Shown piece after piece: positions 2,026-33,517 of a stretch of DNA of 41,263 bases (within the stretch, counting starts at the first letter, position 1; the number at the start of each line of letters is the position of its first letter). Origin of the DNA: Chloroflexi bacterium bin125. Its GTDB lineage: Bacteria; Chloroflexota; Dehalococcoidia; Bin125. The notes under the pieces are model-generated. The model had not been told where the DNA came from, made no database searches, and saw nothing but the letters and a program-made list of their open reading frames with translations. Location: positions 1 to 41,263 of the forward strand of contig MPNM01000026.1 of the NCBI GenBank assembly GCA_002239025.1, written 5' to 3'. The position numbers and the translations under genes are program-made.

Positions 2026-2217
2026 CGAATCCGATCCCTTCTCGCCTCGGCGGACGCCCGTCGCTTCGTTCAGATCAGCAACAGTACATATGAGCGGATG
2101 CCCTTCGCCAGTCCTGCTCCCCCCATCATGTGGACCTCCGTCAACTCAGCAACTGAAAAAGAATGTATGTTCTCATACCGTCAACCTCAGAGACACGACC
2201 GCCGAACGGATCAGCCC

Positions 2218-2619
2218 ATGCCCATCCCGCAAACCGCCCCGCAGGCCATACCTCACGCCCTGCCTCAAGCGTCTCCGCAGGCCATCCATCAGCGCTATTG
2301 GCAAATCGCCAACAGCTCCGATGAACGTGGCTACGTCCAGGTCCGCGCCCTCGATTCCCTCGCCCGGCTCCTCGACCTCTTCCCCCGTCCTGACCACCCC
2401 GGTTTCTTCGCCTGCGACCCCGAACCCCCGCAATCCGCGATCCCGGACGGCCCCTACGCGATCGCCAGCTTGAGCGACGAAGACCTCGATGCCCTGATCG
2501 AGAGGGAAGAAGCCGCGGCCAAAACCCAGACCGACACGGAAGCGGAAGCCAACACTGAATCTGAGCCCGACGACGAAGACGAGGAAGGATCCAACCAGGA
2601 TGAGGACGAACCTCCCTAA
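2218..2619 (+). CDS. Small acidic protein, possibly terminase small-subunit-like
   Basis: 133 aa from the ATG at 2,218; an in-frame ATG at 2,167 would give 150 aa, and neither has a strong ribosome binding site. A Pro/Gln-rich start is followed by a helix-forming segment (RALDSLARLLDL, about residues 42-53). Then come SLSDEDLDALIEREE and a strongly acidic tail of Glu, Asp, Thr and Asn. The helix followed by an SDEDL segment recalls C-terminal parts of some phage terminase small subunits, and the gene lies next to the terminase large subunit, divergently transcribed. No helix-turn-helix is evident. The small-subunit idea is inference; the safe description is hypothetical protein. The longer open frame upstream of 2,167 is antisense to the terminase and is not considered coding. 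Confidence 0.45.
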   Translation: MPIPQTAPQAIPHALPQASPQAIHQRYWQIANSSDERGYVQVRALDSLARLLDLFPRPDHPGFFACDPEPPQSAIPDGPYAIASLSDEDLDALIEREEAAAKTQTDTEAEANTESEPDDEDEEGSNQDEDEPP

Positions 2620-2812
2620 TACCCCAGCTGCGCCCGTTTTTCTTCGTGCGAGCATTCCCAATCCCCGACCAGCGTGGGGACCGGCCCCGCACACCCGCAA
2701 CCAGCCCCCAAACCCAGACAGGGGCCAGATCCCCCTGCAAGAGAGGAGAAGGCACGCTCGCCGCGGTTGGGTGGGACGCCTGCCCAGTTTTGCTGGGGCC
2801 GTTGGTTGGTTG

Positions 2813-2846
2813 GTTCGTGATTCCTGCCTGCGCAGGAATGACGGAG
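2813..2846. repeat. Dispersed ATTCCTGC hairpin repeat
   Basis: A copy of GTTCGTGATTCCTGC-CTGC-GCAGGAATGAC with perfect 8-bp arms. It lies in the gap 2,620-2,873 between two genes facing each other. The gap also contains a fragment of the CCCCCTGCAAG-type repeat near 2,730. The hairpin might act as a bidirectional terminator, but no T-run follows it. Confidence 0.75.
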
Positions 2847-2873
2847 GTGGAGGGGGCTAGGAGTCGAGATTGG

Positions 2874-3446
2874 TTAGATGGGGCCGATGCACTTTCCGAT
2901 GTTTTCGAGGAACTCGATTGGTGCGCACTTGTCGAACCACTTGCCCGTGTGCAGCGTGTACTCGTGGAAGATCTTGAGGGCGGCTAGGAAGAGCAGCCAG
3001 CGGATGGCCTCGGGTCGGGTCAGTGGCGCGGGTGTTCCGTCGGCGGCCTGGGCCCAACCGGGGCGCAGCTTTACGGGCCAGTGTGGTCTCGCGGCGACGA
3101 AGAGGAACCAGAACTCGAAGACGTGAGGGAAGTAGATCAGGATCTCGCGTCCAGCTCCGGCGGTGAAGGCGACGAACCCGATTAGCCGCCAGCCGAACAG
3201 ACCCAGTGCGACTCGGCGTTCCCAGCCCGACCATCGCAACGCGACCACGAGGAAGAGCCAGATGTAGACCTGGTCGACCCACTTGTCCCACTCCTGGTAG
3301 TTGGAGAGCCCGCCGAGGTCGATGGCCTGTCGGAGGAAGAGGTCGGAGAGGTCGATGAAGACGGCGATCAAGCCGCCGACAAAGGCCCAGCGCAAAACCG
3401 GCAACGAACCGGCGACGCGAATCAGGGCGATGACCAGAGCTTCCAT
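2874..3446 (-). CDS. Conserved integral membrane protein of unknown function
   Basis: 190 aa with about four to five hydrophobic segments: residues 1-30, about 60-75, 80-105, 108-120 and 148-162. Hydrophilic loops are rich in Trp and Arg, and the C-terminus holds KIFHEYTLHTG. I do not recognise the family. It begins 35 nt after the stop of phoU on the same strand, so it may be the last gene of the phosphate operon, although no strong ribosome binding site is visible. A role in phosphate physiology would be inference from position only. Confidence 0.6.
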   Translation of the reverse strand: MEALVIALIRVAGSLPVLRWAFVGGLIAVFIDLSDLFLRQAIDLGGLSNYQEWDKWVDQVYIWLFLVVALRWSGWERRVALGLFGWRLIGFVAFTAGAGREILIYFPHVFEFWFLFVAARPHWPVKLRPGWAQAADGTPAPLTRPEAIRWLLFLAALKIFHEYTLHTGKWFDKCAPIEFLENIGKCIGPI

Positions 3447-3481
3447 GTCCGAAGGCTAGGACGATCAAGCCGCTCGTGACG

Positions 3482-4174
3482 TCAGGAGTCTGGGTCGTAA
3501 TCGGGACCGTGGACTCGCTCGAATCTTCCGGTGACCTGGAAGATGGTGCGCTCGCAGATGTTGAGCGCGCGGTCGCCGATTCGCTCGAGGTTGTGCGAAC
3601 ACCAGAGGACGTGGGTGATGGCGTCGGACTCGTCGGCGTCGCCTTCCGCGTCGGCGATGCGTGCGATCAAGCGCTCATGGATGTCGCCATAAATGTCGTC
3701 GACTTCGTCGTCTCGCTCGACCGTCAGGCGGGCGAGGTCCTGGTCTCGATCGAGGAATGAACGCGTTGCCGACTGCAGCATCTCGCGGACCACGTCGGCC
3801 ATTCGCCAGAGGTCGGGTTCGGTCGCGGCGACGGGATTGTCCTCGAGGAAGATGGCGTTGCGGGCGATGCCCTCGGCGTGCCCGGCGATCCGTTCAAGAT
3901 TGAGCGCGATCGCAACGATCGACATCAACTCGCGCAGATCACCTGCGACCGGCTGTTGCAACGCGATGATGCTGGTGACCGCTTCTTCGATCGCGTAGCG
4001 AACTGTTTTGGCATCATGGTCGGCTTCGCAGACCTGTCGTGCGAGCACCAGATCACGGCGCAAGAGGGCCTGCATCGCGTCCACGATGGAGCGGTCGGCT
4101 CGTGCATGCTGCAGGCGCAGGCGATCCAAGACCTCAGCGCGATCAGCGGAGTACGTCACCCGGACGGTTGACAT
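3482..4174 (-). CDS. phoU: Phosphate-specific transport system accessory protein PhoU
   Basis: 230 aa, the usual PhoU length, made of two related three-helix halves. Family-typical segments are visible: RDLVLARQVCEADHDAK and LRELMSIVAIALNLERIAGHA in the first half, and ITHVLWCSHNLERIGDRALN in the second. The acidic D/E-xx-D clusters that bind metal in PhoU structures are in these helices. PhoU couples PstSCAB to the PhoR kinase and keeps the Pho response off when phosphate is plentiful. It is the last recognised gene of the pstS-C-A-B-phoU run, 62 nt after pstB. GAGGGG stands 4 nt before the ATG. Assignment is secure from sequence and neighbours. Confidence 0.95.
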   Translation of the reverse strand: MSTVRVTYSADRAEVLDRLRLQHARADRSIVDAMQALLRRDLVLARQVCEADHDAKTVRYAIEEAVTSIIALQQPVAGDLRELMSIVAIALNLERIAGHAEGIARNAIFLEDNPVAATEPDLWRMADVVREMLQSATRSFLDRDQDLARLTVERDDEVDDIYGDIHERLIARIADAEGDADESDAITHVLWCSHNLERIGDRALNICERTIFQVTGRFERVHGPDYDPDS

Positions 4175-26210: not shown

Positions 26211-26504
26211 ATGGCAAAACAACCCGCCGTCTACATGCTCATCAAGCGACCCCCGTTCGGTCCGATCTACACCGGAGTAATCTCCGATCTCGCCCAGCGC
26301 GCTCACCAGCACAGGCAACGGAGAGGCAGTCAGTTCGCCAGTCGCTATAACGTCACTCGACTCGTCTGGTACGAACTGCATGACACGATGGAGGAGGCGA
26401 TCACGAAGGAGAAGCGGCTCAAGCGTTGGATGCGAGACTGGAAGCTGCGGGAGATCCGGGAGATGAATCCGACGCTTCGCGATTTGTATGAGGACCTTGC
26501 TTGA
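26211..26504 (+). CDS. GIY-YIG endonuclease domain protein
   Basis: 97 aa, the size of the UvrC-like/YhbQ single-domain group. VYMLI and IYTGVISDL replace the canonical GIY and YIG motifs, followed by RAHQH, the LVWYEL strand and the conserved EEAITKEKRLKRWMRDWK helix carrying the catalytic Glu region. The family nicks or cuts DNA or is structure-selective; no cellular role is established for these small forms. It is flanked by inverted copies of the ATTCCTGC hairpin repeat. The recurring association of such nucleases with dispersed palindromes is my recollection from other genomes, not evidence from this one. Confidence 0.9.
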   Translation: MAKQPAVYMLIKRPPFGPIYTGVISDLAQRAHQHRQRRGSQFASRYNVTRLVWYELHDTMEEAITKEKRLKRWMRDWKLREIREMNPTLRDLYEDLA

Positions 26505-27929: not shown

Positions 27930-29057
27930 TCAGTCGGCTACGGCTGTGGCCTCTTGTCGTTTGGTTTGTTCGGCGGCCGCTGCGTCGCGGCGGGCGACTT
28001 CGTCCTTGACCATCGGGATCAGCTCTCGGCCGTAGTCGATGGCGTCGGGGAGTGGGTCGAAGCCTCGGATCAGGATGGTCGAGACGCCGAGGTCGATGTA
28101 CTTGAGCAGGACTTCGGCGACCTGCTCGGGTGTGCCCACGAGGGCGGTGCTGTTGCCAGCGGCGCCGGTGGCTCCGGCGATGGGCATCCAGAGTCGTTCG
28201 TCGTGGATGTCGCCCTTCTCGGCGAACTCGAGCAGTCGCTGCGAGCCACGCGATTGCGGGCGGAAGTCGAGCGACTGCTTGCGCAGCTTGTTCACGGCGG
28301 CGAGGTAGTTGTGGGCCTTTTCCCAGGCCTGGTCCTCGGTCGGCGCGATGATTGGGCGGAAGGAGACGGAGAGTCGCGGGTCGCGGCCGTGCTCGGCGGA
28401 CATCTTGCGGACGCGATCGATGGTCGCGGCGATTGAGGCGCGCGGCTCGCCCCACATCATGTAGACGTCGGCGTGCTTGGTGCCGATTTCGAAGGCGATG
28501 TCGGATGCGCCGCCGAAGTAGAGCGGAATGCCGCCGGGCTGCGACGGCAGGACCTCGGGGTTCTGTCCGACGATGTTGTAGAACTCGCCCTCGAAGTCGA
28601 ACGGCTCGCGTCCGTGGGCGTCGTGCTCCCAGGTGCGGCGCATGACGGAGAGGTACTCGTCGGTGCGGCGATAGCGCTCGTCGTGGCCCTTCCAGTCGCC
28701 GTCGCGCTGCTGCTCGGTGTCGTGTCCGCCGGTGATGATGTGGACGGAGACGCGGCCCTTGGTGAAGAAGTCGAGCGTGGCGAACTTGCGCGCGGCCAGG
28801 GTGGGCGTGACGAATCCGGGCCGGTGGGCGATCAGGAACTTGATCCGCTCGCTACAGGCGGCGGCGGCCTGGGCGACGTGGAGTCCGTCGGCCGAGGCCG
28901 AGGTGTAGCCGACGAGCACGCCGTCGAAGTCGGAGTTCTCGTGGGCCATGGTGAAGTTACAGAGGTAGTCGTGGTCGATGCCGCCGCCGATGATGTGCAT
29001 CGCAGCGTTGGACTCGGACGGCTTGACACCGATCATTCCCAGAAATTCGACGGGCAT
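27930..29057 (-). CDS. LLM-class flavin-dependent monooxygenase, SsuD-like
   Basis: 375 aa; GAGGTG lies just before the ATG. Luciferase-like barrel with alkanesulfonate-monooxygenase features: DHDYLCNFTMAHENSDFDGVLVG, IKFLIAHRPGFVTPTLAARK, VSVHIITGG, RYRRTDEYLSVMRRTW, GIPLYFGGAS and TALVGTPEQVAEVLLKY with a closing STILIRGFDPL. This group uses FMNH2 from a partner reductase to oxidise sulfonates, dimethylsulfone or similar compounds. Substrate is not deducible. It is transcribed with the M28-like gene 20 nt downstream, so the two may act together. Confidence 0.92.
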   Translation of the reverse strand: MPVEFLGMIGVKPSESNAAMHIIGGGIDHDYLCNFTMAHENSDFDGVLVGYTSASADGLHVAQAAAACSERIKFLIAHRPGFVTPTLAARKFATLDFFTKGRVSVHIITGGHDTEQQRDGDWKGHDERYRRTDEYLSVMRRTWEHDAHGREPFDFEGEFYNIVGQNPEVLPSQPGGIPLYFGGASDIAFEIGTKHADVYMMWGEPRASIAATIDRVRKMSAEHGRDPRLSVSFRPIIAPTEDQAWEKAHNYLAAVNKLRKQSLDFRPQSRGSQRLLEFAEKGDIHDERLWMPIAGATGAAGNSTALVGTPEQVAEVLLKYIDLGVSTILIRGFDPLPDAIDYGRELIPMVKDEVARRDAAAAEQTKRQEATAVAD

Positions 29058-29630: not shown

Positions 29631-30953
29631 GTGCTTGCAGACCTGTTGAGAAGCGCGATGAACGAAGTCACGGTAAAGAGCGATCCAAGGCTAGGTTCGC
29701 AGATCACCGTTGAGCAGTATCGATCTTGGATTCAGACCCGCATAACCCGGCGTCGATTGGATCTTTCTTCCGCGACTAGAATGATATCGCTACACCTCGC
29801 CAAAGGCAGCGTTCGCCGACTGCTAACGGACTTCATCTCGACACAGTTCTCGGATATCAGTGTCGACGGCCACGTTCTCTTCGGGGTGCACGAAGTGCTG
29901 GGAGGAATAGTAGGGCCAGCCTCTATCGACGAGATTACCGATAGACTCCTCGAACTTGCCCTCGTTTATGGTCCCGACTCTGCAGCCTCCATTTTCTTGC
30001 GTGCTATCGAGGACCCATCCTGTGAGTATCAGGCCTATACCTTGTTGGACGGCATTTCCGTTGAAGAACCAATTGAGATCTTTGACGGTGTAAGACTGTC
30101 TCCGCTGCCCCGCTCGACAGGAGACTTGCCTCCTCACCTTCCAGAATTCTGGGGCCACTCCGGAGTTTCCGACATCGAGCTACTAGGAGGAGTTTTGCTC
30201 GAGGTTGACCGTTTTCTGACGCCGCGATTCGCGCCTCCTGCTAAAGATTACGACACCCTCACGATGAATCGGAAGCACTTTAGCGCTGGGGTTAGAAGTT
30301 CCGATTTGGACGCGTTCTCGGTCCAGTGGTTCTGTCGAGCATTGTCGCTGGCAAGTCGGACCACCGTTCGAGATACGATTTCATGGAACCACGTGCCCTT
30401 CCAAGAGATCGGACAGAGGATCCACTCATCGCAGGGCTGGAGCAGCATACACCGATACGGACGTCTTTCGCGTGTACGACTCGAAGAAAGGGTGGGCGAA
30501 GTCGTGTCGGGTACAAGGTCGCGCTATCAGACCATCGCGGAAGCCAGTCCCGAGCTAATGGAACGGCTTAACATACCGATAGAACGATGGATGGAATCGG
30601 GAGCATCAAAAGGGATGCTCGATAGAGCTATAGATCTGGGAATTGCGCTCGAAAGCTTTTACGTAAACGATGGCGGAGAGTCTATTCAGTACAAGCTTGG
30701 TGTCCGAGCTGCGAGGCATCTGAGGGATAGCTTGGACGAAAGGAAGAAAGTGAAGTGGCAAATGACGCGTGCGTACGGGTTCCGGTCGGAAGCGGCGCAC
30801 GGCGGCACCATCTCGGGGAAAAAGTTAACGTATGATGACAAGCAGCACACCGTCGAGGAGCTGTTCGAAGAGGCGCGAGATCTGTGCGCAGAGGGTATTG
30901 ATAAAGCAATTTCCGAAGGAGTCCCTGATTGGGACGAGGTGATGTTTAGCTAG
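29631..30953 (+). CDS. HEPN (ApeA-like) domain protein of unknown function
   Basis: 440 aa from a GTG at 29,631 (GAAGGG about 7 nt upstream); an ATG at 29,658 would remove nine residues. The first ~320 residues match nothing I know. The C-terminal ~120 residues resemble HEPN/ApeA-type domains: RAIDLGIALESFYVND, YKLGVRAARHLRDS, then YGFRSEAAHGG. The last contains R385-x4-H390, the RX4-6H signature of HEPN ribonucleases. HEPN RNases are common in toxin-antitoxin and anti-phage systems; a defence role is inference. Arg AGA/AGG and Ile ATA codons are frequent and the gene looks AT-richer than its neighbours. It converges on the methyltransferase-HNH gene. Confidence 0.72.
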   Translation: MLADLLRSAMNEVTVKSDPRLGSQITVEQYRSWIQTRITRRRLDLSSATRMISLHLAKGSVRRLLTDFISTQFSDISVDGHVLFGVHEVLGGIVGPASIDEITDRLLELALVYGPDSAASIFLRAIEDPSCEYQAYTLLDGISVEEPIEIFDGVRLSPLPRSTGDLPPHLPEFWGHSGVSDIELLGGVLLEVDRFLTPRFAPPAKDYDTLTMNRKHFSAGVRSSDLDAFSVQWFCRALSLASRTTVRDTISWNHVPFQEIGQRIHSSQGWSSIHRYGRLSRVRLEERVGEVVSGTRSRYQTIAEASPELMERLNIPIERWMESGASKGMLDRAIDLGIALESFYVNDGGESIQYKLGVRAARHLRDSLDERKKVKWQMTRAYGFRSEAAHGGTISGKKLTYDDKQHTVEELFEEARDLCAEGIDKAISEGVPDWDEVMFS

Positions 30954-31125
30954 CCGGGCAAGGCGGAGTATGGAACCCTCACGAGGGGCTCGTTTGCCAA
31001 GGTGACCGCCCGGTGGACAGGTCAACCACAGCCGCTGATTGGAAATGACCGGTTCCGATGGGAGCAGTCGCCGGCGGAGGTCGAGGCTTTTGACGATGCC
31101 ATAGTCGCGTTTGGCGCCGGGAGCG

Positions 31126-32583
31126 TCAGTCACCGCGCTCCCTGACCGTGTCGTGTGGCAGCTTGGCTCGCTCTTCGTCTAGGAACAGACCCCAGGCCTT
31201 GCTGCCTTTGCGTCCGTTGCAGTTTCCGCAGAGGCCGATTCGATTCATTACGCCGTCTTCTCCGCCACGAACCTTTGGGATGCGATGATCAAGCTGCAAG
31301 TCGACCTTGCGGAGATTCTCTGAATCGCAGTATGGATTGGCGCATTGACGGCCTTGCCGGTTCCAGAGAGCGTCTCGCAATTTGTCATCCGGGACTCGCT
31401 CGACGTCCTGTCGGCGCGGCGGCGATTTCCGCACGGTGACCGGCTGTTCCGTCATGTTTAGCCCTGTTGCCTCGCGCAACCGAATGTACGTTGCTTGCTC
31501 GGCTACGGGATCGATGTCGATTCCGACCCACTTGCGCTGCAGGTCCTCGGCTGCGACACAGGCCGTTGCGCAGCCCGCGAATGGATCGAGCACCATGTCG
31601 CCTTCATTGGACCCACATTCGATCAGTCGTTTGTAGAGGCTGAGCGGCTTACGTGTGTCCCACTCCAGCTCGCTACTCTCCAAGCTCACGACATCGTCCC
31701 AGATATCGTCACGCTTGCGACCTGGTTGCTCATCCAGATAGCGCTTGAAGCGCGGAACATTACCAGGCGCAGTTTGTACGATCCGGCCCGCATCGAGTGC
31801 GGCCTCCATGCGCTCTCGTTCCCAGCGCCAGACTCGCGTGACTCCCAAGAACTCGTAGGTCAGGTTCGGACGGTTTCCTTCTGGATGCACCAAGTTGTCT
31901 AGGGTGTATCGGCGCGGGCCGTCCCACTTGTCGTATTGACGCTCCGTTTTCTCATCAAGATTGGCCATGTCGTAAGGTCTGTAGGACGAAGTCCACTTGT
32001 GCTCAGCCGTCTTACCGTAGGCCAGAATCGTGTCGCTGTTTGCTGGCAAGCGCCGCGTCGGGTAGCTCTTTGCTTCGGCGCGCCGGCGTGTGATCTCGTT
32101 GATGAGGTTGCGCCTCTTGAACACTGCATCGAGTACCAGTCTCAGATATGCATTGGCCTCCGTGTCGCACTGCATGAACAGCACGCCCGTCGGCTTCAAA
32201 ACGCGGTGCATCTCTACGACGCGCGGAGCCATGTAGGCCAGGTATGCGGCGATTGAATTCCTGACTCGGCCGGTGTCGATCTTACCCGTGCGTTGGTCAA
32301 TGCTTCCGCCTTCGATGATGACTGCTGCTTCGATGATTTCCTTGATCGCTGGATGGTCAGTCGCTATCAAGTCCTGCCATTCGTCCGTTACTTCGTCCCA
32401 GCGCCAGCGATCGTCGAAACGCTGCTTGGCCTGCCTGGAACCGAGCGGCGCGTTGAAGATGCGCTTCTTATTGAACGGCGGGTCGGTGGCGATGCAATCG
32501 ACGCTCTCCGAGTTCATGCCTCGGAGGATGCGGATGTTGTCCGCGACGAACAGTGTGCGATTGTCCCAGTTGGCCTCTGCCAT
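31126..32583 (-). CDS. DNA methyltransferase fused to a C-terminal HNH domain
   Basis: 485 aa. Motif IV TDPPFN (34-37) comes first and motif I DPFAGCATACVA (333 on), with VGIDID after it, comes last: the beta-class amino-methyltransferase order, probably N6-adenine or N4-cytosine. Residues about 160-310 would be the target-recognition region. From about 400 to 470 there is a Zn-type HNH nuclease: C414-x4-C419, LDHRIPKV (H433), N447, and C452-x2-C455 with NGRKGSK. A methylase and nuclease in one chain could be a one-protein restriction-modification enzyme, or a phage-type bifunctional protein. AAGGGG lies about 10 nt before the ATG. The gap to the HEPN gene is 172 nt, tail-to-tail. Confidence 0.9.
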   Translation of the reverse strand: MAEANWDNRTLFVADNIRILRGMNSESVDCIATDPPFNKKRIFNAPLGSRQAKQRFDDRWRWDEVTDEWQDLIATDHPAIKEIIEAAVIIEGGSIDQRTGKIDTGRVRNSIAAYLAYMAPRVVEMHRVLKPTGVLFMQCDTEANAYLRLVLDAVFKRRNLINEITRRRAEAKSYPTRRLPANSDTILAYGKTAEHKWTSSYRPYDMANLDEKTERQYDKWDGPRRYTLDNLVHPEGNRPNLTYEFLGVTRVWRWERERMEAALDAGRIVQTAPGNVPRFKRYLDEQPGRKRDDIWDDVVSLESSELEWDTRKPLSLYKRLIECGSNEGDMVLDPFAGCATACVAAEDLQRKWVGIDIDPVAEQATYIRLREATGLNMTEQPVTVRKSPPRRQDVERVPDDKLRDALWNRQGRQCANPYCDSENLRKVDLQLDHRIPKVRGGEDGVMNRIGLCGNCNGRKGSKAWGLFLDEERAKLPHDTVRERGD

Positions 32584-32640
32584 TCTCCAATTTCCCCTTC
32601 TGTGTTCCTGGGTCTGATTGTCGCACAGGTCGGGGGGCCG

Positions 32641-32705
32641 TCCTCACCCTAGCCCTCTCCCACAGGGAGAGGGGATGGAGCGGGTCCCCGCGTGAAGCGG
32701 GGACT
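32641..32705. repeat. Two adjoining dispersed hairpin repeats
   Basis: CCTCACCCTAGCCCTCTCCC-ACA-GGGAGAGGG (about 32,642-32,675) and GGGTCCCCGC-(GTGAA)-GCGGGGAC (about 32,686-32,705). The first matches 23,895; the second is related to the pair at 10,258-10,402. They mark the edge between the accessory island and the next catabolic genes. Confidence 0.7.
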
Positions 32706-32710
32706 GGGGG

Positions 32711-33517
32711 TTAGGCGTCTTGGAACTGGGGGGGGCGCTTTTGCATGAAGGCTTGGCGGCCTTCTTTGTAGTCTTTTGAGGCGAAGCAGGCTTGGACTAG
32801 GCGGTCTACTTCTTCGAGGTTTCGGTGGTTGGGGTCTTTGGGGATTTCCTGGATGGCTCGGCGGATGGCTCGGATGGTCATGGGGGCGTTCTGGGCGATG
32901 GTGGCGGCGAGGTCGTGGACGGTGGGTTCGAGGTCTTCTCGGGTGGTGACCCGGTTGATGAGGTTCCAGCGGGCGGCGTCGGTGGCGGGGAAGCGCTTGC
33001 CGGTGAGCAGGATTTCCTGGGCGGCGGCGAGGCCGACGAGGTCGACGAGGGTCTTGACGCCTCCGTATCCATAGCCGAGGCCGAGGCGGGCGGCGGGAAC
33101 GCCGAACTGGGAGTCGTCGGAGGCGATGCGCAGGTCGGCGCGCAGGGCGGTGAGCAGTCCGCCGCCCATGCAGAAGCCCTGGATCATGGCGATGATGGGC
33201 TTGTCGAGCTCGCCGTAGGCGCGTCCGGCGGCGGCGCCGATTTTGTCGTACTTGGCGATGGTCTCGGGGTTGGAGCGCTGGGCCTCGAACTCGGAGATGT
33301 CGGCGCCGGAGACGAAGGCACGGTCGCCGGCGCCTTTCATGACGACGACGCGGACGTCGGGGTCGTCGCGGAACGTGTGCATGATGGTGGGGATGGCGGC
33401 GTTCATGGCGACGCCCATGGCGTTGAGCTTGTCGGGGTTGTTGAAGACCATCCAGCCGATGCCGTCCTCGGACCAGGCGAGCATCTTGTCGGTGTCGAGG
33501 GGGATGTGGTTCTTCAT
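32711..33517 (-). CDS. Enoyl-CoA hydratase/isomerase family protein
   Basis: 268 aa from the ATG at 33,517 (GAGGAAG about 7 nt upstream); the open frame further upstream is translated repeat. Crotonase fold: WMVFNNPDKLNAMGVAM, oxyanion-hole residues in AFVSGADISEF and GFCMGGGLLTALRADLRIA, and ATDAARWNLINRV. The Glu144-equivalent site reads FGVPAARLG (no Glu); the Glu164 equivalent is kept (AQEIL). As with the protein at 17,203, a simple hydratase role is therefore uncertain. The CoA-transferase gene (33,617-34,804) lies upstream on the same strand, about 100 nt away across a repeat. Confidence 0.88.
   Translation of the reverse strand: MKNHIPLDTDKMLAWSEDGIGWMVFNNPDKLNAMGVAMNAAIPTIMHTFRDDPDVRVVVMKGAGDRAFVSGADISEFEAQRSNPETIAKYDKIGAAAGRAYGELDKPIIAMIQGFCMGGGLLTALRADLRIASDDSQFGVPAARLGLGYGYGGVKTLVDLVGLAAAQEILLTGKRFPATDAARWNLINRVTTREDLEPTVHDLAATIAQNAPMTIRAIRRAIQEIPKDPNHRNLEEVDRLVQACFASKDYKEGRQAFMQKRPPQFQDA

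Follow-up and report, generated by a model that had tools for sequence, protein, structure and literature searches.

A HEPN-type protein gene and a methyltransferase-HNH fusion gene facing each other in a variable locus of a Chloroflexota genome

HEPN proteins near restriction systems and the convergent gene pair

At least 16 clades of HEPN proteins have been linked to restriction systems by Anantharaman et al. 2013 (PMC3710099). ApeA/BMEI1217 is embedded in restriction operons, and HEPN RNases have been proposed to act when restriction fails; HEPN families with an incomplete motif are considered non-catalytic (PMC3710099). The idea of HEPN-restriction coupling is therefore not new, as it was already proposed in 2013 (PMC3710099).

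The locus described here is found on contig MPNM01000026.1 of Chloroflexi bacterium bin125; the window is the whole stretch of DNA analysed, 41,263 nucleotides in length. A gene for a 440-aa HEPN protein with a GTG start (29631-30953, +) faces a gene for a 485-aa methyltransferase-HNH fusion, or MTase-HNH (31126-32583, -). This convergent arrangement of two real open reading frames had been reported in the initial annotation, and it was confirmed. Since both proteins have relatives in other genomes, neither gene is a mere chance ORF. The two were also said to be AT-richer than their surroundings, and this is the case: the overall GC content is 0.54 in the HEPN gene and 0.59 in the MTase-HNH gene, and in 1-kb windows it amounts to 0.54-0.56 and 0.58-0.59, respectively, vs 0.62-0.67 on both sides.

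On the left, the pair is flanked by a luciferase-like monooxygenase gene (27930-29057, -; PF00296, 5.5e-68), found in the same place in congeners, and on the right by an enoyl-CoA hydratase gene (32711-33517, -; PF00378, 3.3e-51) that is likewise conserved in congeners. Between these flanks, no Res-sized ORF is present besides the HEPN and MTase-HNH genes, and hence the Mod-plus-Res composition of a type III system was not found. The repeat assumed to mark one edge does exist at the right edge (about 32627-32720), but it is interspersed, with numerous copies across the genus, this genome included, and is not specific to the pair. It was ruled out as a boundary or signature of the two genes. 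The repeat search of the window gave just short, mostly imperfect two-copy pairs, and the tRNA search of the window gave none. The window also encodes a single-domain GIY-YIG protein of 97 aa (26211-26504, +; PF01541, 1.4e-10).

The HEPN protein and its relatives

The window HEPN protein had no match at E<=1 in Pfam, NCBIfam or PADLOC. Its C-terminal part is nevertheless a probable HEPN domain, as indicated by its motif, by the alignment of the family and by the fold prediction, and the initial claim of a C-terminal HEPN domain with an R385-x4-H390 motif thus stands on these grounds and not on a library match. The motif occupies positions 30783-30800 (+), with the R385 codon at 30783-30785 and the H390 codon at 30798-30800. 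The full-length AlphaFold2 (AF2) model has a pLDDT of 88.1 and a pTM of 0.87. Residues 304-430 (30540-30920, +) are predicted to form the HEPN helical bundle. Alignment of this part with VIA-align placed the HEPN protein 4nqf in the top row (Z 8.2, 3.6 A over 111 residues), AbiV 9bj7 had Z 7.2, and the top rows were HEPN structures, but Z values below about 13 may reflect a common helical-bundle arrangement. Foldseek alone gave nothing significant.

Residues 1-303 (29631-30539, +) form an alpha/beta domain in the AF2 model and are presumed to be a sensor. Modelled alone, this domain reached a pLDDT of 86.5 and a pTM of 0.84; searched alone against PDB, it gave a best Z of 3.7 with unrelated entries, which by itself does not make it a new fold. 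ABC or AAA matches were absent in Pfam for the window protein and its relatives; hence the ATPase of PrrC and RloC was not detected.

The single-protein scan of genome contigs revealed no relatives of the HEPN protein, and the query with a five-sequence alignment revealed 31. They were found in other genomes spread over many phyla, and several are full length at 26-31% identity; a close relative suited to dN/dS was not found. With the HEPN protein as query, tblastn hit annotated HEPN proteins carried by three plasmids. Neither the HEPN protein nor MTase-HNH had a relative in the viral contigs, and the phage records contained no match to the HEPN protein. When the relatives were compared with Pfam and NCBIfam, isolated weak matches to unrelated families were obtained, and PADLOC gave none; the HEPN family is unmatched by any model in the libraries searched. 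The genes of the relatives are usually AT-richer than their own locus. The records that bear them are often, as we take it from isolate names (jk18x..., APA, RHO1, COS, SB06..), sponge-associated bins.

In the alignment of 30 sequences, R319, L336, A339-L340-E341, R371, Y382 and H390 are invariant. H390 is thus present in 30/30 relatives, R385 in 11/30, and alanine, glycine or serine takes its place in the other 19. The R385 label requires two changes on the tree vs 9.2 in shuffles, meaning that the label clusters. The absence of R385 from these 19 proteins would agree with the domain being an RNA- or protein-binding part and not an RNase, as is assumed for families with an incomplete motif (PMC3710099). 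However, the window protein retains both R385 and H390, the latter being invariant, and the non-RNase reading seems improbable. With its intact Rx4H motif, the HEPN domain of the window protein is predicted to be an RNase; as most of the relatives are devoid of R385, the activity is not assured for the family as a whole.

The methyltransferase-HNH fusion, the hotspot and the recurrence of the pair

In MTase-HNH, DPPF (motif IV, residues 34-37) precedes DPFAG (motif I, residues 333-337). This is the beta order, which assigns the methyltransferase part (residues 1-385; 31429-32583, -; PF01555 N6_N4_Mtase, 1.2e-34) to the beta-class N6/N4 enzymes. The HNH part covers residues 400-470 (31174-31386, -; PF01844, 2.1e-7). 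DPPF and the motif I stretch DPF.GCAT are shared by 12 relatives, in which D432, H433, N447, N456 and the cysteines C414, C419, C452 and C455 are invariant, as expected for an HNH nuclease. The earlier description of this protein as a beta-order methyltransferase fused to a Cys4-type HNH domain is thus correct. Relatives at 82-92% identity are under strong purifying selection (dN/dS 0.03-0.07). Between the window copy and that of the congener G005, dN/dS was 0.058 in the methyltransferase part and 0.031 in the HNH part; with values this low, both parts appear to be maintained.

The MTase-HNH profile at E<=1e-60 had matches in 75 of the 400 genomes of the phylum, some of them reaching the profile end (HNH) and others stopping near position 350-380. 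Among the matches listed for the phage records, the methyltransferase matches extend to about residue 380 and do not include the HNH part. In the congener G014, contigs C17 and C23 (L064, L065) end within MTase-HNH genes near residue 302, perhaps owing to an assembly break in repeated genes.

The flanking genes are conserved at the DNA level in congeners, and 2.3-10.6 kb of differing cargo lies between them; the same flanks with different cargo were found in 12 congeners. Among the cargo genes are, in G007, a C5-methylase-BsuBI/PstI fusion accompanied by Vsr; in G009, a type ISP enzyme; in G012, MmeI-like enzymes, to which the G014 cargo is similar as judged by reading; in G008, two N6/N4 methylases; and in G001, a UvrD helicase with GajB as its best PADLOC matches. 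G010 (L054, 3106-5907) contains a small ORF, a ThiF-family protein matching the PADLOC E1-E2 models and an ORF of 328 aa with no Pfam match. G003, G004 and G006 (L053, 2202-6251; L059; L058) have a gene set almost without library matches apart from one weak PADLOC match, PDC-M33A, the likeness of G004 and G006 being judged by reading. Two adjacent genes resembling ImuB and DnaE2, by reading only, occupy the hotspot in G002 and G005 (L056, L061). Because congeners hold different cargo, often restriction-modification genes, between the same flanks, the locus is considered a defence hotspot, and the defence role suggested earlier for the two genes is supported by this location, which in related genomes is occupied by restriction-modification and other defence-like genes. 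The hotspot is thereby identified in this genus, and its other cargo is open to mining. In G003 (L067, 4207-8998), another HEPN-like protein lies next to a PIN-like ORF and to genes that look like type III Mod and Res, according to reading and tblastn.

The congener G005 carries MTase-HNH (92% identity) at the same locus, and no HEPN relative was found there or elsewhere in that genome. To assess recurrence more broadly, 33 MTase-HNH neighbourhoods were scanned for the HEPN family (profile E<1e-3). No HEPN relative was detected in 31 of the 33; only the window and L118 have one, L118 having originally been retrieved with the HEPN query. At least 28 of these 31 neighbourhoods are usable and non-redundant. 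L064 and L065, contig-end fragments of the G014 gene in which the MTase was not found, were left out, as was L161, centred on a paralogue that matches only residues 5-382 and may have no HNH. The 28 include L151 (G292:C301), a contig of 3,620 bases whose MTase occupies 2,215-3,579 and which is short on one side, and L083, one side of which extends over about 480 bases. Several of the neighbourhoods share a genome and represent separate loci, not independent genomes; some control neighbourhoods end at contig or extracted-region edges, so that a distant partner could be missed. The count supports the conclusion that there is no recurrent partner nearby, not that a partner is absent anywhere.

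Viewed from the HEPN side, one of 31 loci has MTase-HNH in reach, namely L118, where the genes are 3.5 kb apart and the HEPN protein belongs to a subclade without R385. The search for the same pair in other genomes, proposed with the initial annotation, thus returned this one co-occurrence and otherwise no recurrence in the neighbourhoods scanned. G144 possesses both families, separated by about 400 kb or placed on different contigs. A conserved HEPN/MTase-HNH two-gene system was rejected on recurrence, given G005, the neighbourhoods (at least 28) and the single case among the HEPN loci.

These data bear on the original proposal that the two genes constitute one module. In such a module, the HEPN RNase would be held off by MTase-HNH, or would watch it, and fire upon disturbed methylation or a disturbed enzyme, by analogy with PrrC and its restriction enzyme. 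The genes are adjacent and convergent inside a defence hotspot, and such coupling has a precedent in the literature (PMC3710099). However, convergent genes do not form an operon, the partner is missing at the same locus in G005 and in at least 28 usable neighbourhoods, and the two families are far apart or on different contigs in G144. Support for a link comes indirectly, from other members of the HEPN family. PF01555 methylases occur at 5 of 31 HEPN loci vs 0.64 expected from genome-wide counts, and three lie within 2 kb of the HEPN relative vs 0.26 expected, although the three close cases are all from Poribacteria (L095, L097, L099) and, being related on the tree, represent few independent events, so that the Poisson figures overstate the evidence. 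In L095 (6122-9431) and L097 (5716-11875), a type III Mod gene is directly upstream of the HEPN gene; L097 also has Res directly downstream, which gives the order Mod-HEPN-Res. In L099 (26-2199), the end of a methylase, truncated by the contig or region edge, lies beside the HEPN gene. There may be a functional HEPN-methyltransferase link in this part of the family. For the window pair, the single module is not supported, and we give it a low probability. A HEPN trigger tied to methylation would be better motivated by the Poribacteria operons than by the window pair. The Mod-HEPN-Res operon is also a cleaner setting for testing a guard role of a HEPN RNase towards a restriction enzyme.

A wider and rather doubtful proposal, somewhat less unlikely than the single module, concerns the HEPN family as a whole. 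It would be a new family with its own N-terminal sensor, distributed across phyla and often sponge-associated, with Poribacteria members in the Mod-HEPN-Res order guarding the restriction enzyme and with a large sister clade in which the arginine was lost and the histidine retained, pointing to an altered chemistry or a role without catalysis.

MTase-HNH could also be mainly a selfish mobile gene, spread by its HNH and protecting its carrier by its methyltransferase, with little antiphage benefit. Its single copies at unrelated loci in G006 and G004 and the lack of a recurrent partner at most loci are consistent with this. The window and G005 copies are separated by a dS of 0.78, higher than in the flanking genes (0.31, 0.40), which is compatible with separate arrival; the difference may, however, reflect codon bias, and as to whether the G005 gene is vertical or transferred it is suggestive only. 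The slot holds defence genes in relatives, which argues against a purely selfish gene, and we regard this explanation as unlikely.

The reading that we favour, with reasonable though not high confidence, is that the genes are two independently mobile single-gene defence modules sharing a variable chromosomal hotspot. The HEPN gene would encode a stand-alone sensor-effector, in which the 303-residue N-terminal domain senses an infection cue. Sensing would release the C-terminal HEPN RNase, with R385 and H390 in the active site and probably acting as a dimer, to cut cellular RNA and stop the infected cell, i.e., abortive infection. MTase-HNH would combine modification and cutting in one chain: a site in self DNA would be marked by the beta-class methyltransferase, and DNA without the methyl mark would be cut by the HNH domain. 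The data show the domain make-up, the conserved catalytic residues, the purifying selection acting on both parts of MTase-HNH, the position in the hotspot and the lack of a recurrent partner nearby; we infer the HEPN trigger, RNase activity and dimer as well as the target site and DNA-cutting rule of MTase-HNH from family knowledge. The candidate two-gene system is thus replaced by two better-defined objects: one is a HEPN family to which no model in three profile libraries corresponds, the other an MTase-HNH fusion with a wide distribution.

Comparison with known systems

MTase-HNH resembles type IIC restriction-modification enzymes in having a methyltransferase and a nuclease in one polypeptide. 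It differs in that its predicted nuclease is an HNH domain. The tail-activated HEPN system Tha (PMC11087260), compared by description only, also combines an N-terminal part with a C-terminal HEPN RNase bearing Rx4H; unlike the window protein, it is prophage-encoded and 301 aa long.

With PrrC and other restriction-linked HEPN proteins (PMC3710099), the window protein shares the C-terminal HEPN domain with Rx4H, relatives in or beside restriction operons and a presumed suicidal RNase. Unlike in these proteins, no ABC-ATPase was detected in the N-terminal domain, and the neighbour in the window is a lone MTase-HNH with no helicase or Res subunit. ApeA is similar in being a single protein with an N-terminal domain of about 300 aa and a C-terminal HEPN domain. 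The ApeA structure 9hxj gave a weak profile match at the motif (E 0.0034, alignment A1); the larger profile A3 had no PDB match, and PADLOC gave no match. ApeA-NTD1 is described as mostly beta (PMC3710099), whereas the N-terminal domain of the window protein is predicted to be mixed alpha/beta.
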